Below, piece by piece: positions 50,831-61,133 of a stretch of DNA of 64,000 nucleotides. Below the pieces are notes generated by a model. It searched no databases. It was not told the DNA's origin and worked only from the letters and a program-made list of their open reading frames with translations. Within the stretch, counting starts at the first letter, position 1. Every line of letters starts with the position of its first letter. This stretch comes from Psychroflexus aestuariivivens. Lineage in GTDB: Bacteria > Bacteroidota > Bacteroidia > Flavobacteriales > Flavobacteriaceae. The stretch spans positions 124,001 to 188,000 of the forward strand of contig NZ_RQVT01000018.1 of the NCBI RefSeq assembly GCF_004010055.1, in the 5' to 3' direction. Made by a program: the position numbers and the translations under genes.

Positions 50831-50883
50831 AATTTCAGTATTTATAAAACGACATATCAGAACTTTTCTAAATTGAATTATAT

Positions 50884-50922
50884 AAAGCCTTAGACTTTAA
50901 AAATCTAAGGCTTTTGTTTTTT
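50884..50922 (+). terminator. Terminator after carB-gamma-CA operon
   Basis: AAAGCCTTAGA pairs with TCTAAGGCTTT around a nine-base loop and is followed by T-rich sequence. Confidence 0.8.
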
Positions 50923-51247
50923 TGAAAATTAAAAACGTGAGTATTCAATTAAAATTTCAAGGTCAATCTGTCAAATCTATATTTGAAAATATTTAGAATG
51001 TTTCAATATGAATTCTTAGAACTTCAACAAAAAACATAAATGAAACTCAATTGTTAAATAATTTATGATTTATTTCTTTTAAATTAAATTCGAGTTAATA
51101 AATTTTAAATTTACCCAATTAGTAATTTTGTATAATAAAATAAAATTGTATATTGAGATGTCGCAAAAAGAGCTTAAAGCTTTATTTTAATCACTTCCAT
51201 TGCGCATAAAATCATATAACCACACAATTGAACAACAACGAAAATTT
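50923..51247. promoter_or_regulatory. Leader region of the amine-pathway gene block
   Basis: This 325-bp stretch precedes the seven-gene block. It carries a TAATTTTG -7 box at 51123-51130 and a leader of about 110 bases. An 11-codon open frame at 51158-51190 begins ATGTCG. Otherwise A+T-rich with no conserved RNA motif that I recognise. Confidence 0.45.
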
Positions 51248-52564
51248 ATGACAGAAGTACAAATAAAATCTCATCAACTTCTTGAGAGAAGAAAAAACAT
51301 CGTAGCCAATGGAGTCGGTGTTTTTAATACGGCTACAGTAAGTGAAGCCAAAGGAGCAATTATTAAAGATGTAGACGGAAAAGAACTTATTGACTTTGCG
51401 GGTGGAATAGGTGTTGTTAATGCAGGACATTGTCCTGATTCTGTTGTAAAAGCCATTCAGGATCAGGCTCAAAAGTATTTGCACACAAGTTTCAACGTTG
51501 TCACTTATGAGCCTTACATTAAACTTTGTGAAGAGCTTGCAGAAATTCTACCTCATGGAGAGAAAACCAAAGCTATGCTTATTAGTACTGGCGCAGAAGC
51601 AGTAGAAAATGCAATTAAAATTGCCCGTCAGGCTACCAAACGACCTGCAGTTATTTGCTTTACAGAAGCTTACCATGGACGTACACTTATGGGAATGAGT
51701 TTAACGAGTAAAGTAAATTACAAATTTTCTTCCGGTCCATTTGCTCCGGAAATATACAGAATTCCTTTCCCTAATTTTTATAAATATCATGGTTCGCTAA
51801 GTATGGACGAATTTGTGGAAACTGAGTTAAATCGACTTAGAGAAAGTGCACACAGCATGGTCGATATTAAAAGCGTAGCTGCCATTATTGTTGAGCCAAT
51901 TCAAGGAGAAGGTGGTTTCAACCCAATACCACAAAAATATCTGGAAGGGCTTCGCTCTTTTTGCGATGAAAATGGTGTTATGCTCATTATGGACGAAATT
52001 CAAAGTGGATTTTGTCGCACTGGCCATTGGGCAAGTTGGCAACATTACGGCGTGCAGCCAGATATTAGTACTTATGCAAAATCTATGGGATCTGGACTTC
52101 CTATTGCAGCAGTATTGGGTAGAGCCGAAGTTATGGATGCTGCGGAACCTGGAACTATAGGTGGTACTTACATTGGTAGTCCTGTATGTTGTGCTGCAGC
52201 ATTAGCCACAATACAGCTTATGAAAGATGAAAATCTGAATGAACGCGCTTTTCATATTGGACAAATAATTACAGAACGTTTAGAAAATTTCAGAAAAGAG
52301 TGTCCAGAAATTGGAGATATAAGAGGCTTAGGCGCTATGATCGGTATTGAGTTTAATAAAGATAACAATCCTGGTAACCCACATACCGAGCTGTGTAGCA
52401 AAATTGTAAAAGGATGCGCTCAAGAAGGTTTAATTCTACTAAGTGCAGGTACTTTCAAAAATGTGATACGAATATTATGTCCTTTAGTTATTACCGAAGA
52501 ACAGTTAAATAAAGGGTTAGATATTTTAATAAATCAAATAAAGAAACATACTGAAAATTTATAG
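51248..52564 (+). CDS. gabT: Class III aminotransferase, 4-aminobutyrate aminotransferase-like
   Basis: The 438-aa protein is a fold-type I, class III PLP aminotransferase. PLP Lys is K278 in TYAKSMGSGLP, the cofactor Asp is in LIMDEIQSGFCRTG, and VEPIQGEGG is typical of GABA and omega-amino aminotransferases. Such enzymes move a terminal amino group to 2-oxoglutarate and leave an aldehyde. It is the first gene of a co-directional block that ends in a semialdehyde dehydrogenase, the natural next enzyme. Substrate may be GABA or an acylated diamine. The ATG at 51248 was chosen over one 16 codons upstream. Confidence 0.88.
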   Translation: MTEVQIKSHQLLERRKNIVANGVGVFNTATVSEAKGAIIKDVDGKELIDFAGGIGVVNAGHCPDSVVKAIQDQAQKYLHTSFNVVTYEPYIKLCEELAEILPHGEKTKAMLISTGAEAVENAIKIARQATKRPAVICFTEAYHGRTLMGMSLTSKVNYKFSSGPFAPEIYRIPFPNFYKYHGSLSMDEFVETELNRLRESAHSMVDIKSVAAIIVEPIQGEGGFNPIPQKYLEGLRSFCDENGVMLIMDEIQSGFCRTGHWASWQHYGVQPDISTYAKSMGSGLPIAAVLGRAEVMDAAEPGTIGGTYIGSPVCCAAALATIQLMKDENLNERAFHIGQIITERLENFRKECPEIGDIRGLGAMIGIEFNKDNNPGNPHTELCSKIVKGCAQEGLILLSAGTFKNVIRILCPLVITEEQLNKGLDILINQIKKHTENL

Positions 52565-52715
52565 AGTAATTTGAAATTTAATAAAATCTGATGTTTCGAA
52601 ATTGTTAGAGCATCCTACTAGAATTTTAGATTTCAATTTTTTAAAAGAATTAAAACAGAATTAAAAAAAATACTATTTGAAGAAATTTATCTTCAATAAC
52701 CAAAAACAATAATCA

Positions 52716-53657
52716 ATGAAACCTTTTGCAATAGCAGGAATACAAATGAAAGTCTCAGCTGTTAATTCAAATATAGAATTAATGAAGTTGAAACTTGATA
52801 TCACAATGAGTTTATATCCATGGGTAGACATGGTTGTGTTTAGTGAACTTTGTGGTCACGGTCCTTTAACTCATACCGCAACAGAAATACCTGGAGATTT
52901 TGAAAGCGAAATGCAAGCCATGGCCAAAAAACATAAAATCTGGCTTCTACCAGGATCGATTTTCGAAAAAAGTGAGGGAAATATTTACAATACCGCTTCA
53001 GTCATCAATCCGGATGGAGACGTAGTAACGCGTTATCGCAAAATGTTCCCGTTTTATCCTTATGAAGTCGGCGTAACTCCTGGTAAAGATTTTTGTGTGT
53101 TTGACGTGCCAGGAGTTGCAAAATTTGGAATTTCAATTTGTTACGACATGTGGTTTCCAGAAACAGTTCGAACGCTTGCAGTAATGGGCGCAGAAGTGAT
53201 TTTACACCCAACGATGACTGGAACTATTGATAGAGATATAGAATTATCTATCGTAAGAGCCATGGCAGCCGTAAACCAATGTTACTTTTTTGATGTAAAT
53301 GGTTTAGAATCTGGTGGTAACGGCCGTTCTTTAGTCTGCGGACCAGATGGTCGAGTGATATATCAAGCTGAAGGCAATGAAGAGATTTTTCCTATTGAAT
53401 TAAATATAGAGCGCGTAAAAAGAAGTCGAGAAATGGGTGTTCTAAGATTGGGGCAGCCTTTAAAAAGTTTTAGAGATCATATAGGACAATTTAGTATCTA
53501 TAAAGAAGGCGTCAAACTGCCTTACTTAAATTCTTTAGGTCCTTTAATAAAACCAACTAAAATGGACACTTTAGCCAAGCTAAAAATGCAAGAACATCAG
53601 CATGAATCTAATCCAACATCTAATCCAACAGAGTATAAGGGATTTACAAATAATTAA
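52716..53657 (+). CDS. Nitrilase-superfamily carbon-nitrogen hydrolase (amidase)
   Basis: The 313-aa protein has the Glu-Lys-Cys triad of nitrilase-superfamily amidases: E44 in FSELCG, K109 in YRKMFPF and C142 in SICYDMW. Members hydrolyse amides, nitriles or N-carbamoyl compounds, and include N-carbamoylputrescine amidase and omega-amidase. The last 40 residues are an unusual tail. It is separated from the aminotransferase by 151 bp and from the VOC gene by 12 bp, in the same direction. A place in amine breakdown is suggested by its neighbours. The acyl group removed is unknown. Confidence 0.87.
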   Translation: MKPFAIAGIQMKVSAVNSNIELMKLKLDITMSLYPWVDMVVFSELCGHGPLTHTATEIPGDFESEMQAMAKKHKIWLLPGSIFEKSEGNIYNTASVINPDGDVVTRYRKMFPFYPYEVGVTPGKDFCVFDVPGVAKFGISICYDMWFPETVRTLAVMGAEVILHPTMTGTIDRDIELSIVRAMAAVNQCYFFDVNGLESGGNGRSLVCGPDGRVIYQAEGNEEIFPIELNIERVKRSREMGVLRLGQPLKSFRDHIGQFSIYKEGVKLPYLNSLGPLIKPTKMDTLAKLKMQEHQHESNPTSNPTEYKGFTNN

Positions 53658-53669
53658 ACACATATAACT

Positions 53670-54074
53670 ATGGGCGGAACAGCACCGAAGCAAAAGAACA
53701 AAAAAAGTCAAAAAAATATAATTAGCTGGTTTGAAATTCCCGCTATTAATTTTCAGCAATCTGTAAATTTCTATAACCAGATTTTTGGAATTGATATGGA
53801 AACCAATATAGATGAAAATTATGCCATGGCTTTTTTTCCAGTAGATAAAGGTATTGGAGGTTCTATCGTTGCTGGTCCAGGCTCAACACCCGGAGATACT
53901 GGTCCTTTATTATATCTCAACGCAGGAGATGATTTGAGTTTAGTTCTCAATCAAGTAGAAAAAGCGGGTGGTAGAGTTGTTATGCCTAAAACACTTATAA
54001 GCAAGGAGTCAGGATACTTTGCGATTTTTATAGATCCAGAAGGAAACAAACTAGCACTTTATTCAACTAAATAA
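53670..54074 (+). CDS. VOC superfamily (glyoxalase/dioxygenase-fold) protein
   Basis: The 134-aa protein has a single vicinal-oxygen-chelate domain: beta-alpha-beta-beta-beta repeats with ISWFEIPAIN, VNFYNQIFG and FIDPEGNKLALYS. The usual metal-ligand Glu in the last strand (DPEGNxLEL) is Ala here, so metal-dependent catalysis is uncertain. A short Lys-rich tail starts the protein (MGGTAPKQKNKKSQKN). It sits 12 bp after the amidase gene and 4 bp before the decarboxylase gene, well within the block. Function in the block unknown; a binding or isomerase role is possible. Confidence 0.82.
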   Translation: MGGTAPKQKNKKSQKNIISWFEIPAINFQQSVNFYNQIFGIDMETNIDENYAMAFFPVDKGIGGSIVAGPGSTPGDTGPLLYLNAGDDLSLVLNQVEKAGGRVVMPKTLISKESGYFAIFIDPEGNKLALYSTK

Positions 54075-54078
54075 CTTT

Positions 54079-56805
54079 ATGAAAAATCCAAAATCTCAAA
54101 TATCTACATGCTACAATATCAATCAATTCCGATTAGAGTCGTGGAACAATTTAAAAAGTGAATCCGCTAAGTTAGAAAGTTTTGAAAGAAATTCTGTAGA
54201 AGAAACCAAACAAAAAGAGCTTGTAAAGAATTCACTAAAGAGTTTAGAAAATATTGAAAGTTATTTTGCGCTTCCTGGTGTTTCAAGAATTGAAATGTTA
54301 TTTGAAATGCTAGAAAAGCGTGAACATACTGCATTTGCACATAAAATTACAGAGATTACAAAGTTATTGGTGAGTGATAAATATAGAAGTAATCCTGATA
54401 TAATTGATGATGACGATCTCAACCCAGAAGTTGGGCATAGCTTAGATAAACCTGATGGGAAAGATAAAAATTACTTCGAAGTTTTGTTTGTTGAAGACAT
54501 CTCTATTCAAGAAGAGCAAAAATTAAGACACGACTTAAAGGAGGTTTTTACACGTAACGATCAATTTAATTACGGCATTGTAGTTCAAAGAAGCTTTGAG
54601 GATGCTATGATTGCTTTAAAGTTCAATAGTAATATACAGGCTGTTGTAATTCGCTATGCGCCTCCATATCGTTCCAAAAAGATCACGCAAGAAATGGAAC
54701 CTTTTGTTTCTAGTATTTTGAATTTTGATCTAGGTACAAAACGCGAAAGTGATTTAGGACCTGTGTTAGGACGTTTTGTTAAGAAGTTTAGATCAGAATT
54801 AGATACTTATTATGTTACAGATTCATCCTTAGGAAATCTTAAAGACAATACTTTAAAAAGCTTTAATAGAATTTTTTATAGGGCAGAAGATCTCCAAGAA
54901 TTGCACCTTACTATTTTGAGAGGAATTTGCAAACGCTATGAAACACCTTTCTTTTCAGCTTTAAAAGAATACAGTAAAAAACCTACTGGCGTATTTCATG
55001 CAATGCCTATTTCTAGAGGTAATTCAGTTTTCAAATCCAGGTGGATTAATGATTTCGGTAAATTCTATGGTAGAAACCTGTTCTTAGCGGAAACTTCTTC
55101 TACAAAAGGTGGCTTAGATTCATTACTTCAACCAACGGGATCGCTTAAAGTTGCTCAGAAAATGGCAAGTGATGCTTACGGATCGTTGAATACTTTTTTT
55201 GTAACCAACGGTACTTCAACTTCCAACAAAATTGTAGTTCAGGCTTTAGTTAAGCCAGGTGATGTTATTTTAATTGATAGAGATTGTCATAAATCTCATC
55301 ATTATGGTTTAGTTCTAGCTGGTGCTTATCCAGTGTATTTAGATTCCTATCCTATTGAAAAATATTCTATGTATGGCGCTGTACCTCTGCAACAGATTAA
55401 AGACAAGTTGTTGCAATTGAAAGCTGCCAATAGAATGGATCTTGTTAAAATGCTATTACTTACTAATTGTACTTTCGATGGGTTGGTTTACAATGTAGAA
55501 AAAGTTATGGAAGAAATTTTAGCAATCAAACCCGATATGATTTTTCTTTGGGACGAAGCTTGGTTCGCATTTGCAGGATTTACTTTCAACTACAAACAAC
55601 GTACAGGGATGTTTGTGGCCAATAAACTTCATAAGAAATATAAAAGTGAAAAGTATAGAATTCAGTATGAAGAGCATATAAAGAACCTAAAAAAGGGAGA
55701 AGTTTCAAAATTACCAGATCCTGATAAGGTTAGAATTAGAGTATACTCTACTCAAAGTACTCATAAAACACTAAGTAGCTTCAGACAAGGTTCTATGATT
55801 CATGTTTGGGATGAAGATTTTAGAAAGAAAAGTCAGAATTCATTTATGGAGGCTTATATGACGCATACTTCGACTTCACCTAACTACCAGATTTTAGCTT
55901 CTTTAGATGCAGGAAGACGACAGGTTCAATTTGAAGGTTACGAACTGGTAGAAAAAAGTATAGAACTTGCTATGGTTTTTAGGGCTAAAGTTAATGATCA
56001 TCCGAGGTTGAAGAAATATTTTGATGTTTTAACCATAGGAGATTTTATTCCAAAGGAGTTTAGGGTTTCTGGTTTAGCTGAATATTACAATCCAAAAAAA
56101 GGTTGGAATCGTATGAATAAGGCTTGGAAAAATGATGAATTTGTTTTAGACCCAACCAAAATAACAATTCACATTGGACGTACTGGTGTTGATGGTGACA
56201 CTTTCAAGAATAAATATTTAATGGATCAATTCAATATTCAAATTAACAAAACATCCAGAAATACAATATTGTTAATGACCAATATTGGAACCACAAGAAG
56301 TAGTATCACTTATTTAACCAACGCCTTATTGAAAATTGCAGATGAATTAGATCGAGAACTACTTTCACTTTCACCTAAAGAAAGTAAGATTCACGAGGAT
56401 AAAATTCATTCATTAACACAAGATTGTCCGCCTTTACCTGACTTTAGTTATTTTCACAGTTCATTTCAAGCAGTACCAGGAGTTCCAGGTGGAAATATAA
56501 GAGAGGCATTTACGCTGGCTTATAATGAAGAAAATTATGAATATGTCCCTCTTCAAGAATGTATGCCAGCTATAGAGGACGGTCGAACTTTGGTAGCTTC
56601 ATGTTTTATTATACCTTATCCGCCAGGTTTCCCAGTTTTAGTACCCGGTCAAGTGGTCAGCAAAGAAATCATTCATTTTCTAACTGCGCTGGACGTTTCA
56701 GAAATTCATGGATACACACCTGAACTTGGCTTAAGAGTTTTTAAAGAAACTGTTTTAAATAGACAAAAAACAGTCACTTCAATAGGAAGTAATTCAAAAA
56801 AATAA
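54079..56805 (+). CDS. Orn/Lys/Arg decarboxylase-family PLP enzyme, 908 aa
   Basis: The protein has the three parts of the bacterial fold-type I basic amino acid decarboxylases. Residues 1-280 are a divergent wing region with an extra N-terminal helix bundle. Residues about 290-680 are the PLP domain, with PLP-binding K563 in STQSTHKTLSS and the His stacking on PLP in RDCHKSHH. The C-terminal domain contains PYPPGFPVLVPGQ. Usual length is 710-760 aa, so this one has about 150 residues more. It should decarboxylate lysine, ornithine, arginine or a close analogue to an amine. It starts 4 bp after the VOC gene. Substrate cannot be read. Confidence 0.86.
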   Translation: MKNPKSQISTCYNINQFRLESWNNLKSESAKLESFERNSVEETKQKELVKNSLKSLENIESYFALPGVSRIEMLFEMLEKREHTAFAHKITEITKLLVSDKYRSNPDIIDDDDLNPEVGHSLDKPDGKDKNYFEVLFVEDISIQEEQKLRHDLKEVFTRNDQFNYGIVVQRSFEDAMIALKFNSNIQAVVIRYAPPYRSKKITQEMEPFVSSILNFDLGTKRESDLGPVLGRFVKKFRSELDTYYVTDSSLGNLKDNTLKSFNRIFYRAEDLQELHLTILRGICKRYETPFFSALKEYSKKPTGVFHAMPISRGNSVFKSRWINDFGKFYGRNLFLAETSSTKGGLDSLLQPTGSLKVAQKMASDAYGSLNTFFVTNGTSTSNKIVVQALVKPGDVILIDRDCHKSHHYGLVLAGAYPVYLDSYPIEKYSMYGAVPLQQIKDKLLQLKAANRMDLVKMLLLTNCTFDGLVYNVEKVMEEILAIKPDMIFLWDEAWFAFAGFTFNYKQRTGMFVANKLHKKYKSEKYRIQYEEHIKNLKKGEVSKLPDPDKVRIRVYSTQSTHKTLSSFRQGSMIHVWDEDFRKKSQNSFMEAYMTHTSTSPNYQILASLDAGRRQVQFEGYELVEKSIELAMVFRAKVNDHPRLKKYFDVLTIGDFIPKEFRVSGLAEYYNPKKGWNRMNKAWKNDEFVLDPTKITIHIGRTGVDGDTFKNKYLMDQFNIQINKTSRNTILLMTNIGTTRSSITYLTNALLKIADELDRELLSLSPKESKIHEDKIHSLTQDCPPLPDFSYFHSSFQAVPGVPGGNIREAFTLAYNEENYEYVPLQECMPAIEDGRTLVASCFIIPYPPGFPVLVPGQVVSKEIIHFLTALDVSEIHGYTPELGLRVFKETVLNRQKTVTSIGSNSKK

Positions 56806-56825
56806 TAATCGTTTAAATCACAATT

Positions 56826-58481
56826 ATGGATTCAAAAGATAAGAAAAATTCAAATCAAAATAAATCAGAAAAAGAATCTCAACGCGATTCTAAATCTGCA
56901 ACTATAAGCGGAAAAGATAAGACAAAAATACCTGTCCGAGGTAAACAATCGCCCAAAAAACCCTACAAGTCTGTTGCACAGAAAAAGTCAACTTCTGGTC
57001 TTGCTCCAAAAAAATTAGGTAGACCCAAAAAAGAAGATTTAAATGGAGTTTCAGACATAAGGAGAGCTTTTCATAAAAATGAAGAACCATTATATTTTAT
57101 TAGTGCTACAAATTTCAATCTTTTAGGAGCAGATGAATGGATCAAAGGATTTAGATTTATTACCTATATAGAATGTTTTGATGGGCAACATCCAAACGTT
57201 TTTTCTCCTAAAAATGAAATACCACACGATGATTTTGAAGGTATAGAAGATATTAATAATTACTTGTTACAACATCCTGAAGTACAAGATTATATTAAAA
57301 CTAGAAGTGTTGACGGACGCGCTGGCAAAGCGATGTTTCTTATGTTTAACGAAGAAACAGAACGACTTGCCGAAAAACTTGGTCTTGAAATTATGTTCCC
57401 TTCAGCAGAAATGAGAACATTTTTGGATAACAAAGTAAATACCAACCGTATTGCTGAAAAAGCAGGCGTAGCTTGTGTTCCTTATGTACTTTCTAAAGTA
57501 AACAATTTTGAACATTTGTCTGAAGTGTCCAAAGATTTAGGAACAGAGTTAGTTATTCAAACTCCTTTTGGAGACTCTGGTCATACTACTTTCTTTATTT
57601 CAAGTGAAGATGATTACCTAGAATATGCTGATGAGATTGAAGATGAAAATGAAGTGAAAATTATGAAGCGTATTCGTTGTCGAGGAACAGCAATTGAAGC
57701 TTGTGTAACACGACATGGAACTATTGTGGCACCATTGATGACTGAATTAGTTGGATTTGAAGAATTAACACCTTACGAAGGTGGCTGGTGTGGTAACGAA
57801 ATTTATCCAGATGCATTTACGCCTGAACTTAGAAAAAAAGCTGTAGAATACACCCAGCTTTTTGGTAATCAGCTTAGAGAAGAAGGTTATAAAGGTTATT
57901 TCGAGTTAGATTTTCTAATTGATCAGGATAATGGTGAAATTTATTTAGGAGAGCTCAACCCAAGAGTTACAGGCGCCAGTTCAATAACTAATCACGCTGT
58001 ATTTGCCTTAGCCGATGCGCCTCTTTTTGTATTTCATATTTTAGAATGGATGAATATGGATTACGTTTTGAATGTTGAAAAACTCAATAAACGCTGGTCT
58101 AAACAAGAAAATATTGACAGTTGGAGTCAGTTGATTGTTAAGCATACAAATGACACCATTGAATATGTAACTGAATCTGCAAAATCTGGTATTTGGAAAA
58201 TGTATGATACAGGTCACATTCAATTTGATAGAATGGATACACACAGGCGTGCTGTACAAAACGAGAACGAAGCTTTCTTTATGAGAATTGCCAAAAAAGG
58301 AGATTATTTGTACGAAGGAGCAGATATTGGGATTCTCGTTACAAGAGGTCGACTAATGACAGACGATTTCGAATTAAACGACAGAGCAAAAAATTGGATT
58401 AAGGCTATCCGTTCGCAATTTTCTTCAGTAATGGTAGAAGATAAACGCAAATCAAATCTATCAGGTTCTTTGACCAAATAA
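56826..58481 (+). CDS. ATP-grasp ligase with basic AT-hook-like N-terminal tail
   Basis: The 551-aa protein has an N-terminal tail of about 75 residues very rich in Lys, Ser and Gln, including QSPKKPYKS and KKLGRPKKED. The GRP core with flanking Lys matches an AT-hook. The rest is an ATP-grasp domain (about 190-430) with FGDSGHTTFF and the metal-binding ELNPRVTGASS. Automated annotators may call it biotin carboxylase, but it lacks partner BCCP genes. ATP-grasp enzymes join a carboxylate to an amine, which fits next to an amine-producing decarboxylase and two amide hydrolases. 20 bp after the decarboxylase gene; substrate unknown. Confidence 0.82.
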   Translation: MDSKDKKNSNQNKSEKESQRDSKSATISGKDKTKIPVRGKQSPKKPYKSVAQKKSTSGLAPKKLGRPKKEDLNGVSDIRRAFHKNEEPLYFISATNFNLLGADEWIKGFRFITYIECFDGQHPNVFSPKNEIPHDDFEGIEDINNYLLQHPEVQDYIKTRSVDGRAGKAMFLMFNEETERLAEKLGLEIMFPSAEMRTFLDNKVNTNRIAEKAGVACVPYVLSKVNNFEHLSEVSKDLGTELVIQTPFGDSGHTTFFISSEDDYLEYADEIEDENEVKIMKRIRCRGTAIEACVTRHGTIVAPLMTELVGFEELTPYEGGWCGNEIYPDAFTPELRKKAVEYTQLFGNQLREEGYKGYFELDFLIDQDNGEIYLGELNPRVTGASSITNHAVFALADAPLFVFHILEWMNMDYVLNVEKLNKRWSKQENIDSWSQLIVKHTNDTIEYVTESAKSGIWKMYDTGHIQFDRMDTHRRAVQNENEAFFMRIAKKGDYLYEGADIGILVTRGRLMTDDFELNDRAKNWIKAIRSQFSSVMVEDKRKSNLSGSLTK

Positions 58482-58497
58482 AAAATAAATAGTCTCT

Positions 58498-59640
58498 ATG
58501 CAGATTCATTTTAAAACTATTTCTGAGCCTGGAATACCAGGTCAGAAATGGCAAAATTTATTCTTTACTCACTGGGAAGCCTACAAAAAATGGCTGATTG
58601 AAAATGAAAAAGAAGCTCCGACTGCTGATTTGAAAACTTCTCAGGCTGCTTTAAAAACCCACATGCCTGAAATTTGGCCAACTTATGTCAGATTATGTGA
58701 ACTCGCAGGAGCCGATGAAGTTGCTGCAAAATTTTTAACTGGTTATCAACCGCCATTTTATGTTACAGGTTGTTCTAACGCTATATTTGAAGGTGAAGAT
58801 TTTCAACTTGTTCGCAATTACGATCACCATCCTGACTTATTTGAAGGTGTGCAAATGTTGACCAAATGGAATCGAAAAAAAGTAATAGCTACCAATGATT
58901 GTCTTATCGGTGTGCTCGACGGAATCAATGAAGATGGATTAGTAGTTTCGCTCACATTTGGTGGTCGCAAAATCACAGGTGAGGGCTTTGGAATTCCTTT
59001 CATATTACGCTATGTCCTTGAGTTTTGCAATAATGTAGATGAAGCTATTGAAACACTCATCCGAATACCAACACATATGGCTTATAACGTTACTTTAGCA
59101 GATCGGCTTGGTCATTATAAAACCATTAGAGTAGCACCAAATGAAGAAGCAGTTATTACTAATGCCGCCTTTACTACAAATCATCAAAAAAAGATTGATT
59201 GGCCAGAAAATGCAAAATTCAATAAAACAGTTGAACGCGCCTTATTTTTAAAAAATCTCTTAGCTGAAGATCAGCTTTCAGCCTCAGATTTAGTGGAGGC
59301 TTTTCTTAGAAAGCCATTGTATAACGATTTGTTTAAACAAGGTTTTGGCACACTGTTTACAGCTGCATATCAACCTATAACAGGGCGAGTAGATTTACGT
59401 TGGCCAAAACAAAAAATCAGTCAAAGTTTTCAGCATTTTGTCGAACAAGACAAATTGATTCATTTACAACAGAGGAAAAAGAAAGCCAAACCAAGAAAGC
59501 ATTTCTCAATACCTTATCAAGGACACACCGCTAAAAATATCACTTATTCTAATCCGTTTTTAGACAAATCTGATCCAGAAGAGTCCAAAGAAATAACAAA
59601 AGCATTTTTGTCAGAAATTTGGTCTACTGTTAAATTATAA
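58498..59640 (+). CDS. C45 family Ntn-hydrolase (acyl-CoA:6-APA acyltransferase-like)
   Basis: The 380-aa protein belongs to the peptidase C45/IAT family. The nucleophile is C92 in VTGCSNAIF, with the downstream RNYDHHPD and DGINEDGLVVSL typical of this fold. In the family the precursor cuts itself before that Cys, making it N-terminal. Known relatives hydrolyse or exchange amides, such as isopenicillin N acyltransferase and the insect beta-alanyl-dopamine hydrolase Tan. Here it would fit the removal of an acyl group from an amine. 16 bp after the ATP-grasp gene. No signal peptide. Confidence 0.85.
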   Translation: MQIHFKTISEPGIPGQKWQNLFFTHWEAYKKWLIENEKEAPTADLKTSQAALKTHMPEIWPTYVRLCELAGADEVAAKFLTGYQPPFYVTGCSNAIFEGEDFQLVRNYDHHPDLFEGVQMLTKWNRKKVIATNDCLIGVLDGINEDGLVVSLTFGGRKITGEGFGIPFILRYVLEFCNNVDEAIETLIRIPTHMAYNVTLADRLGHYKTIRVAPNEEAVITNAAFTTNHQKKIDWPENAKFNKTVERALFLKNLLAEDQLSASDLVEAFLRKPLYNDLFKQGFGTLFTAAYQPITGRVDLRWPKQKISQSFQHFVEQDKLIHLQQRKKKAKPRKHFSIPYQGHTAKNITYSNPFLDKSDPEESKEITKAFLSEIWSTVKL

Positions 59641-59694
59641 ACCTCAATAATTTATTTAAATTTAGATTATAAATTAAGTAAAAAATCAAATACT

Positions 59695-61050
59695 ATGAAG
59701 TTTCAAAGTATCAACCCATATAACGGAGATAAAATAGCAGAATATACTGCTTTATCAAAAGAAGAATTAGATCAAAAACTATCTGATTCAGCTGTAGCCT
59801 TTAAAAATTGGTGTCAGCAACCATTGTCGCAAAGGACGAATTTACTCAAGAAAGCTGGGGAAATTTTACGTAAAAATAAAGATGAGTATGCTAAAACCAT
59901 CACTTTAGAAATGGGAAAACCAATTTCTGAATCCATTTCAGAAATTGAAAAATGTGCTTGGGTGTGCGATTATTATGCAGAACATGCAGAGGAATTTTTA
60001 GCAAACGAAGTTATCAAAACAGATGCTTCCAAAAGTTTTGTTCGTCACGATCCTATTGGAAGTGTCTTTGCAGTTATGCCGTGGAATTTTCCGTTTTGGC
60101 AAGTCTTCAGATTCGCTGCACCAACACTAACTTCTGGTAATACTGGATTGCTAAAACATGCTTCAAATGTGTTTGGTTGTGCTCAAATTATAGAAGATGT
60201 TTTTACACAAGCTGGCTATCCAAAAGGTGTTTTTCAAAGTTTAGTAGTTGACCACGATGTTACAGAACGTATTATTTCACATAAAACAGTAAAAGCTATT
60301 ACTCTAACAGGTAGTGAAAAAGCTGGCTCAACAGTCGCTCAAATTGCTGGTAAACATCTTAAAAAAAGCTTATTAGAACTCGGTGGAAGTAACGCTTTTA
60401 TCATTCTCGAAGATGCCGATTTAGATTTAGCAATCAAAACTGCTGTTAAAGCTAGAATGCTAAACAGTGGTCAAAGTTGCATCGCCGCAAAACGTTTTAT
60501 AATTCATGAATCGGTTTACGATAAATTTGTATCTGAATTTATTAATGAAGTTCGCCAACTTGAAGTTGGAGATCCAGCATTAGAGACTACTGAAATTGGA
60601 CCCTTAGCAAGAAAAGATCTTGCCGATGAACTACAAAAACAAGTTAGAACTTCCATTCTACAAGGTGCTGAATTACTACTAGGAGGAGAACAAAACAACT
60701 GCTTTCATGAGCCTACAGTGCTTGGTGGAGTTACTCGAGATATGGCAGTTTTTAAAGAAGAAACCTTCGGGCCAGTTGCTGCTATGATAAAGTTTAAAAG
60801 TATTGAAGTAGCTTTTGATTTATCTGAAGAATCTCAGTTTGGATTGGGCGTTAGTTTATTTACAAAAGACACCTCAAAAGCAGAGAAATATGCCGATAAA
60901 GTAAGTGATGGCGCTTTATTTATCAATGAATTGGTTAAGTCTGACCCTAGACTGCCCTTTGGTGGAACCAAAAAATCTGGATATGGTAGAGAGTTAGCAA
61001 AAGATGGTATGATGGAATTCATTAATAGAAAAGTTGTATACGTTAAATAA
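59695..61050 (+). CDS. gabD: NAD(P)-dependent succinate-semialdehyde-type dehydrogenase
   Basis: The 451-aa protein is an aldehyde dehydrogenase. The catalytic Cys is C262 in SGQSCIAAKRF and the general base is E228 in LELGGSNAFI. The N-terminal region (PYNGDKIAEY) and length match the short SSADH group (YneI/Sad-like) rather than GabD proper. It oxidises a semialdehyde, for example succinate semialdehyde, to the acid and would follow the aminotransferase in the same block. It is the last gene, 54 bp after the C45 gene, and is followed by a strong terminator. Confidence 0.87.
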   Translation: MKFQSINPYNGDKIAEYTALSKEELDQKLSDSAVAFKNWCQQPLSQRTNLLKKAGEILRKNKDEYAKTITLEMGKPISESISEIEKCAWVCDYYAEHAEEFLANEVIKTDASKSFVRHDPIGSVFAVMPWNFPFWQVFRFAAPTLTSGNTGLLKHASNVFGCAQIIEDVFTQAGYPKGVFQSLVVDHDVTERIISHKTVKAITLTGSEKAGSTVAQIAGKHLKKSLLELGGSNAFIILEDADLDLAIKTAVKARMLNSGQSCIAAKRFIIHESVYDKFVSEFINEVRQLEVGDPALETTEIGPLARKDLADELQKQVRTSILQGAELLLGGEQNNCFHEPTVLGGVTRDMAVFKEETFGPVAAMIKFKSIEVAFDLSEESQFGLGVSLFTKDTSKAEKYADKVSDGALFINELVKSDPRLPFGGTKKSGYGRELAKDGMMEFINRKVVYVK

Positions 61051-61101: not shown

Positions 61102-61133
61102 AATGTCATCTCAAAATGGGATGACATTTTTTT
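61102..61133 (+). terminator. Terminator closing the amine-pathway block
   Basis: AATGTCATCTC (61102-61112) pairs with GGGATGACATT (61118-61128, one G-U) around a five-base loop and is followed by a T-run. Confidence 0.85.

Follow-up and report, generated by a model that had tools for sequence, protein, structure and literature searches.

The window analysed here, a 64,000-nucleotide stretch of the Psychroflexus aestuariivivens genome (GCF_004010055.1, contig NZ_RQVT01000018.1, positions 124,001 to 188,000 of the forward strand; contig G000:C57 of genome G000), carries a block of seven intact open reading frames at positions 51248-61050, all on the + strand and separated by gaps of 151, 12, 4, 20, 16 and 54 bp. 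In order, these encode an aminotransferase (AT), a nitrilase-type amidase (NIT), a VOC protein, a decarboxylase (DC), an ATP-grasp ligase (GRASP), a C45 N-terminal nucleophile (Ntn) hydrolase (C45) and an aldehyde dehydrogenase (ALDH). An initial annotation, made from the sequence alone, had described seven co-directional genes of these families; open reading frame calls reproduced their positions, order and gaps, and Pfam and NCBIfam scans agreed with the families:

51248..52564, + strand: AT, class III aminotransferase of GABA-transaminase type (PF00202; TIGR00700, 509.5 bits); alternative TTG start at 51200
52716..53657, + strand: NIT, nitrilase-superfamily amidase (PF00795, CN_hydrolase)
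53670..54074, + strand: VOC-fold protein (PF00903, Glyoxalase/VOC)
54079..56805, + strand: DC, 908-aa pyridoxal phosphate (PLP) decarboxylase of OKR fold (PF01276, OKR_DC_1)
56826..58481, + strand: GRASP, ATP-grasp ligase (NF005096, PRK06524, named 'biotin carboxylase'; 824.3 bits, cut-off 684)
58498..59640, + strand: C45, autoproteolytic Ntn-hydrolase with nucleophile Cys92 (NF040521; 155.5 bits, cut-off 85)
59695..61050, + strand: ALDH, succinic-semialdehyde type (PF00171; best NCBIfam match PRK09406, a succinic-semialdehyde dehydrogenase, SSADH)

Conservation of the gene block

Conserved order and co-occurrence leave us highly confident that the seven genes act as one functional unit. We sampled 296 Bacteroidota and 398 Pseudomonadota genomes; a separate genome scan gave 23 loci, and GRASP matches were found in 32 plasmid records, 11 of which represented the plasmids in neighbourhood counts covering 48 loci. 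Many of these loci are closely related (L066 and L047 are one locus), the eleventh GRASP-bearing Pseudomonadota genome (G296) was counted as L050 within the 23 loci, and the alignments (A1-A6) comprise chosen representatives. GRASP orthologues were rare and patchy: 71/296 Bacteroidota genomes matched at E 0.001, only 4/296 (the window genome included) carried a copy at ≥73% identity, and the other listed matches scored ~30 bits or less. Among Pseudomonadota, 11/398 genomes matched NF005096 at 1e-30, with seven above its cut-off. The closest named relatives of the window GRASP came from six Psychroflexus species (86-90% identity).

The initial annotation had proposed looking for co-occurrence in other genomes, and the order AT-NIT-VOC-DC-GRASP(-C45)-ALDH indeed recurs across genera of Flavobacteriia. 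Among the 23 loci, DC was found near GRASP in all 23, AT, NIT and VOC in 22 each, and C45 and ALDH in 17 each, with some contigs ending inside the cluster. The corresponding counts were DC 10, C45 10, NIT 8, ALDH 3 and AT 0 for the 10 Pseudomonadota genome loci, and C45 10, DC 7, NIT 7, ALDH 3 and AT 2 for the 11 plasmid loci. Overall, DC lay within 9.5 kb of GRASP in 44/48 loci, NIT in 41/48 and C45 in 41/48, occasionally on the opposite strand (NIT in L055, L085, L089 and L090; C45 in L085), and VOC was confined to the Bacteroidota/Ignavibacteria versions (22/23, 2/4, 0/10 and 0/11 by locus set). Because the counts per lineage keep DC, GRASP and an amide hydrolase while AT, ALDH and VOC drop out, the former constitute the core and the latter are mainly Bacteroidota additions. 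The same core, with NIT, C45 or both as hydrolase, was also found in Pseudomonadota and on rhizobial plasmids, and two genomes carry it within an ectoine-degradation locus. Some rhizobial-plasmid copies look decayed, including a C45 fragment in L057 and the DCs of L050 and L059, which have altered residues around H404. The plasmid cores of L059 and L092 lie near radical-SAM genes for ribosomally synthesized and post-translationally modified peptides and that of L057 near nifA and electron-transfer-flavoprotein genes, with insertion sequences around.

The block is bounded in the window by the following signals:

50884..50914, + strand: upstream terminator, separating the operon from the gene before it (hairpin of 11 pairs with a 9-nt loop and a 3' side rich in T; 50880-50930 folds at -13.1 kcal/mol)
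51123..51130, + strand: TAnnTTTG element 117 bp before AT; weak, without a matching partner motif
61102..61128, + strand: downstream terminator (hairpin of 12 pairs with a T tract)

The downstream hairpin, which corresponds to the terminator of the initial annotation, has the longest stem of the terminator-like sites listed in the region, and the upstream hairpin was missing from the terminator scan, which permitted loops of at most 8 nt. As a class, terminator-like sites were not clearly above chance in the region (8 found, 5.5 expected, sd 2.2), and neither were sigma-70-like sites (38 found, 44.5 expected). The TAnnTTTG sequence, which we take to be the Bacteroidota -7 motif, has a further copy at 50978 and occurs 57 times on the + strand of the window. 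Directly past the terminator lies a CrtO-like gene (PF18927, 61250-61774). Neither this gene nor the flanking carB and gamma carbonic anhydrase genes had a match in the 23 fetched loci, six named Psychroflexus species included; some contigs of this set end near the cluster.

Predicted chemistry of the enzymes

GRASP belongs to the NF005096 'biotin carboxylase' family by cut-off, but the function named for that family is doubtful. When aligned with AccC of the same genome, EMNTRIQVEH of AccC corresponds to ELNPRVTGAS of GRASP (AccC EMNTRIQVEHPIT, GRASP ELNPRVTGASSIT). The ATP-site E, N and R are kept in 30/30 GRASP sequences, and the QVEH positions hold T/S/C, G (30/30), A/I/C and S (30/30). 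Because the QVEH motif is absent, we do not read GRASP as a carboxylase; biotin or guanidine carboxylase chemistry, prompted by the annotation and the amidase neighbours, was set aside on this ground. A structural model of GRASP (mc8561dfb49f1; predicted local distance difference test score (pLDDT) 82.9, residues 1-68 of low confidence) matched biotin carboxylases, PurK, GAR synthetase and PylC about equally among its best 50 PDB matches (Z 21.8-23.6). For example, 3ouz_B (Z 23.6, 385 residues, root-mean-square deviation (rmsd) 4.0), PurK 4dlk_A (Z 23.2, 345, 4.5) and PylC 4ffr (Z 22.7, 322, 4.6) were tied within 1 Z unit. GRASP shares the ATP-grasp fold with these enzymes at 8-16% identity among the matches listed and, unlike them, has a disordered N-terminal tail and its own conserved GGWxGNE loop. 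From its residues and model, it is most likely an amide ligase.

The nearest solved relatives of DC are the Rv2531c chains (9n0n and 9n0o), matched over the full length at 1134 bits, compared with at most 281 bits for lysine and arginine decarboxylases. Rv2531c is a probable amino acid decarboxylase whose activity is reported not to have been clarified (PMC12910592). DC passes no NCBIfam lysine, ornithine or arginine decarboxylase cut-off; six such families match, the best being LdcC at 204.4 versus 968 bits. The PLP residues of the OKR type are kept in 30/30 sequences (K563, the PLP lysine of STHK, and D492, the Asp of DEAW). Where LdcI has E526 (located by chain residue numbering), DC has Asn (N723) in 30/30 sequences, as opposed to Glu in arginine decarboxylase 6q6i and lysine decarboxylases 6y3x and 9e0m; this Glu presumably binds the distal amine. 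DC also has two added Arg residues, R508 (30/30) and R727 (29/30), where the three chains have Leu or Pro. We opened five DC relatives from outside GRASP clusters, three of which (L104, L105 and L106, from Ensifer, Phyllobacterium and Rhodobacter; 42% identical to the window DC) adjoin aspT, the gene of an aspartate-alanine antiporter, and the one antiporter tested, that of L104, passes TIGR03802. Because the Glu is replaced by Asn and three relatives adjoin aspT, the evidence points to a decarboxylase distinct from those of lysine and arginine and to a substrate other than these two. Less surely, DC may act on an acidic or amide-linked amino acid, with glutamate or a glutamate amide as the best guess. 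The initial annotation had DC making the amine as an Orn/Lys/Arg-type enzyme; these residues and neighbours disfavour a diamine as its product.

The two remaining core proteins resemble amide hydrolases. NIT keeps E44, K109, E117 and C142 in 25/25 sequences (alignment A3), and its best solved profile match is nitrilase homolog 2 (2w1v). Cys92 of C45 is present in 26/26 sequences, with Gly (22) or Ala (4) directly before it, in alignments that leave out L082, L087 and the L057 fragment. The C45 model (m9572e1d26d62, pLDDT 84.6) best matched the isopenicillin N acyltransferase precursor 2x1c_A (Z 29.5, 305 residues, rmsd 3.4), and many alignments with bile salt hydrolases and penicillin V acylases begin at model residue 92, opposite chain residue 1 or 2. 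In both fold and nucleophile, as judged by model and residues, C45 matches the autoproteolytic amide hydrolases. It resembles isopenicillin N acyltransferase and the NF040521 family in fold and Cys processing site but is only 12-14% identical to the former, and nothing here speaks for penicillin chemistry.

Across lineages, one hydrolase is often retained without the other. Clusters without C45 keep NIT (L037, L042, L043, L045 and L046), and a profile search that recovered the copies of G000, G211 and G300 found no C45 in any of the three genomes with C45-less clusters that were searched (G297, G298 and G299), an absence that is less certain for G297 and G299, which are metagenome-assembled genomes. 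Conversely, C45 is kept in six clusters with no NIT nearby (L050, L058, L059, L086, L087 and L092), NIT having been searched only near the cluster. Overall, NIT and/or C45 was found near GRASP in 47/48 loci; the sole locus without either, L057, has its C45 fragment beside a transposase and a full-length C45 elsewhere on the plasmid. The two hydrolases thus look partly interchangeable from their distribution. The presence of at least one of them near GRASP fits the ligate-then-hydrolyse logic of the initial annotation, and their interchange argues against an obligatory, Puu-like deprotection by C45.

AT scored 509.5 bits against the TIGR00700 GABA-transaminase cut-off of 506.65 and was the only protein of the window genome above it, the next reaching 224.7 bits. 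As AT alone in the genome passes this cut-off, we assign it a probable terminal role in the breakdown of 4-aminobutyrate (GABA), which is simpler than the initial proposal that the single AT and ALDH act on a protected amine. A gabT gene lies near NIT-DC-GRASP-C45 in Roseobacter ponti, Glu/Leu/Phe/Val dehydrogenase genes lie near L057 and L059, and a glutamate-synthase-like gene lies near L054 and L079. Elsewhere in the window genome, a separate polyamine-type locus (L097:2385-7338, contig G000:C23), read by eye, contains a biosynthetic arginine decarboxylase, an agmatinase (PF00491), a deoxyhypusine-synthase-like gene and a GNAT-nitrilase fusion. Two further links were considered and dropped. 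Ureohydrolases (PF00491) are present in 17/19 genomes, but the best copy of the window genome lies, by eye, in that speA-speB-deoxyhypusine synthase locus; agmatine deiminase (PF04371) is absent from the window genome and present in 3/8 cluster-bearing genomes, with no link seen.

A tentative pathway and its rivals

Our preferred reading, held tentatively and at well below even confidence, is of one operon encoding one pathway, with DC, GRASP and a hydrolase at its heart, a glutamate-like substrate and an end running from GABA to succinate. DC would decarboxylate a glutamate-like amino acid with an acidic or amide-linked side chain to a GABA-type omega-amino compound, and GRASP would spend ATP to join the DC product or its precursor by an amide bond. 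NIT and/or C45, replacing each other across lineages, would hydrolyse the amide made by GRASP, and AT and ALDH would convert the released GABA to succinic semialdehyde and then succinate. In this scheme, both the substrate and the sequence of steps are inferred. More doubtful is the full form of this proposal, in which the OKR-fold decarboxylase would have given up cationic amino acids and would act on glutamate or on a gamma-glutamyl amide from a new ATP-grasp ligase, two interchangeable hydrolases release GABA, and the pathway spans flavobacteria, Ignavibacteria, roseobacters, ectoine-degrading Pseudomonadota and rhizobial plasmids.

Several observations weigh against this reading. AT passes TIGR00700 by 3 bits, and ALDH passes no NCBIfam SSADH cut-off (PRK09406, 529.9 versus 730 bits; TIGR01780, 329.9 versus 646.35), although its best matches are still SSADHs. 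In the 10 Pseudomonadota loci, no AT of the window type was above threshold, and the three ALDH matches were only ~28-29% identical. The specificity argument for DC leans on the presumed binding of the distal amine by E526, for which a literature search listed no confirming paper, and no ornithine decarboxylase was among the chains compared. Rv2531c shares the Asn but carries Ile at the R727 position, and the other two DC relatives opened, L103 and L109 (79% and 76% identical to the DC of the L058 cluster), have no aspT beside them. The operon of Shinella-type plasmids is equally compatible with arginine or guanidinobutyrate chemistry, and the core sits in an ectoine-degradation locus in L081 and L082. 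Our confidence is limited by the aspT pairing, which held in only 3/5 relatives, and by the enrichment of DoeA in GRASP-bearing Pseudomonadota.

That enrichment lends weight to a rival based on compatible solutes, which we still consider unlikely. The core would work with ectoine or another solute: DC might, for example, act on 2,4-diaminobutyrate or ectoine-derived aspartate, or an omega-amino-acid amide (of GABA or beta-alanine) might be a solute, a signal or a store that GRASP synthesises and C45 and NIT hydrolyse; relatives of C45 include carcinine and beta-alanyl-amine hydrolases. DoeA (E 1e-150) was found in 7/11 GRASP-bearing Pseudomonadota (G296, G383, G386, G535, G562, G639 and G683) compared with 56/398 sampled, 39 of the 56 being over cut-off (hypergeometric P 1.6e-4, or 7.4e-4 minus one of the two insertion genomes; uncorrected for relatedness or habitat). 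GABA does not account for this association, which suggests a connection with an osmolyte or diaminobutyrate. In L082 (5233-18961), the NIT-GRASP-C45-DC core sits inside an ectoine-degradation locus, the gene order being doeA, doeB, Lrp-type regulator, core, SSADH-like gene, aminotransferase, eutB. Its doeA, doeB and eutB pass their cut-offs, as does the doeA of L081 (G386), where the gene order looks the same. Outside GRASP clusters, the DC and aspT of L105 also lie near eutB, eutC, doeA and doeB.

Other observations weigh against this rival. The Halomonas elongata locus reads doeA-doeB-doeX-doeC-doeD-eutB-eutC, with doeX and doeC bearing consecutive locus numbers and no insertion between them (PMC3187862). 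Because these two genes are consecutive there, the four-gene core of L082 looks inserted. Only two of the seven genomes with GRASP and DoeA have doeA beside the cluster. Across the 19 cluster-bearing genomes, DoeA (TIGR02993) was over its 613-bit cut-off in five, with two more scoring 607 and 590, and in none of the eight Bacteroidota/Ignavibacteria genomes (best, 42 bits; window genome, 36 bits), which leaves ectoine catabolism unsupported as a role in the window genome; within Pseudomonadota, the link is retained as a candidate.

A second rival, rather unlikely in our judgement, is the route proposed by the initial annotation after the Puu pathway of Escherichia coli, which proceeds by gamma-glutamylation of putrescine. 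DC would make putrescine, cadaverine or agmatine, GRASP would protect one amine, AT and ALDH would oxidise the other end, and C45 or NIT would free GABA or 5-aminovalerate. The enzyme types permit this, and the cluster resembles Puu in having ATP-dependent amide ligation, an aldehyde dehydrogenase, an amide hydrolase and a probable GABA end. It differs in that its ligase and hydrolases come from other families, its decarboxylase belongs to the core and its substrate is probably no diamine; Pfam and NCBIfam scans of the cluster found no PuuA-type ligase or PuuD-type hydrolase, and found ATP-grasp, CN_hydrolase and C45 instead. XRE-type genes that look PuuR-like by eye lie near L083 and L088. 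In L082 the core is adjoined by a further class III aminotransferase (NF005684, over cut-off) and by the SSADH-like ALDH, and L081 has similar genes there; the L082 pair is otherwise explained as part of the ectoine locus. In the window cluster, the second AT/ALDH pair needed for a protected amine is missing if AT is the GABA transaminase that its score suggests. DC lacks the Glu common to the displayed lysine and arginine decarboxylases, three of its relatives pair with aspT, and fixed deprotection by C45 is disfavoured because NIT and C45 look partly interchangeable. What survives of the initial proposal is therefore the conserved operon, its novelty and ligation followed by hydrolysis; the diamine and the oxidation of a protected amine by AT and ALDH are not supported, nor is C45 as a required deprotecting enzyme.

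Arginine catabolism is improbable, although Shinella-type plasmids provide a suggestive context. Under this alternative, DC or, in Shinella, a racemase with DadA, AruI and ALDH would convert arginine to 4-guanidinobutyrate, and GRASP, NIT and C45 would process the guanidino moiety, or a conjugate, before GABA is reached. On these plasmids, GRASP and C45 lie within an operon with AruI, ALDH and SpeB, an arginine-to-GABA set. They are found amid genes for SpeB, 5-guanidino-2-oxopentanoate decarboxylase, ALDH, D-amino acid dehydrogenase and a racemase, as annotated in L055 and L089 and as judged by similarity in L090. These three loci amount to one case, however, as the genes around L090 are 90-97% identical to those of Shinella and L089 repeats the Shinella gene order. 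When 14 loci were searched with the Shinella SpeB, L090 alone gave a match, and the Asn of DC in place of Glu also counts against an arginine substrate. The idea that the arginine route replaces DC on Shinella-type plasmids was weakened by the XES5 plasmid, which carries DC elsewhere (L103). The record holding L089 and L103 (NZ_CP084753.1) is labelled Roseateles sp. XES5 ('UNVERIFIED_ORG'), and its annotation around the cluster lists the genes found in Shinella, in their order there, so the organism label may be wrong.

Still more improbable is a pathway that breaks down amides or peptides taken up from outside, putative candidates being N-acyl glutamine amides such as N-acetylglutaminylglutamine amide (NAGGN) and gamma-glutamyl cell-wall peptides. 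The cluster has two amide hydrolases, and downstream of the rhizobial core come genes for ABC transporters, an amidase and a MurR/RpiR regulator, assigned by annotation in L059 and L092 and by similarity or eye in L050 and L058; the ABC transporters of L054 are annotated as oligopeptide type. This reading leaves an ATP-consuming ligase unexplained, and the flavobacterial operon contains no transporter. Among other neighbours, read by eye, TAXI-type TRAP permeases lie near L079, L083 and L088, a DctA/GltP-like carrier adjoins L056, and MocR-type regulators lie near L056, L081 and L091. The Sinorhizobium meliloti genes SMa0680-SMa0684, considered for their similarity, were rejected as the same locus: SMa0684 is named adiC (PMC7268258), and the S. 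meliloti GRASP records listed come from other strains. Finally, neighbourhood by chance or common ancestry, without joint function, is almost certainly wrong, being contradicted by an order kept across genera and a core kept across phyla while the flanks change.

Novelty and implications

The initial annotation knew of no described pathway with this exact gene set. Judged by titles and the starts of abstracts, we likewise found no description of the gene set or pathway in the open-access literature. An operon with amide-linked intermediates is of a known kind; as far as we have seen, what is new is the combination of enzymes, together with the altered decarboxylase and the doubt cast on 'biotin carboxylase' as a name.

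If the glutamate-to-GABA reading is true, NF005096 would be misnamed as 'biotin carboxylase' and the DC family mislabelled as Orn/Lys/Arg decarboxylases. The as yet unassigned decarboxylase family that includes Rv2531c would gain a testable substrate class, namely acidic or amide-linked amino acids, and a pathway of marine bacteria and symbiotic rhizobial plasmids would become open to assay with four proteins.

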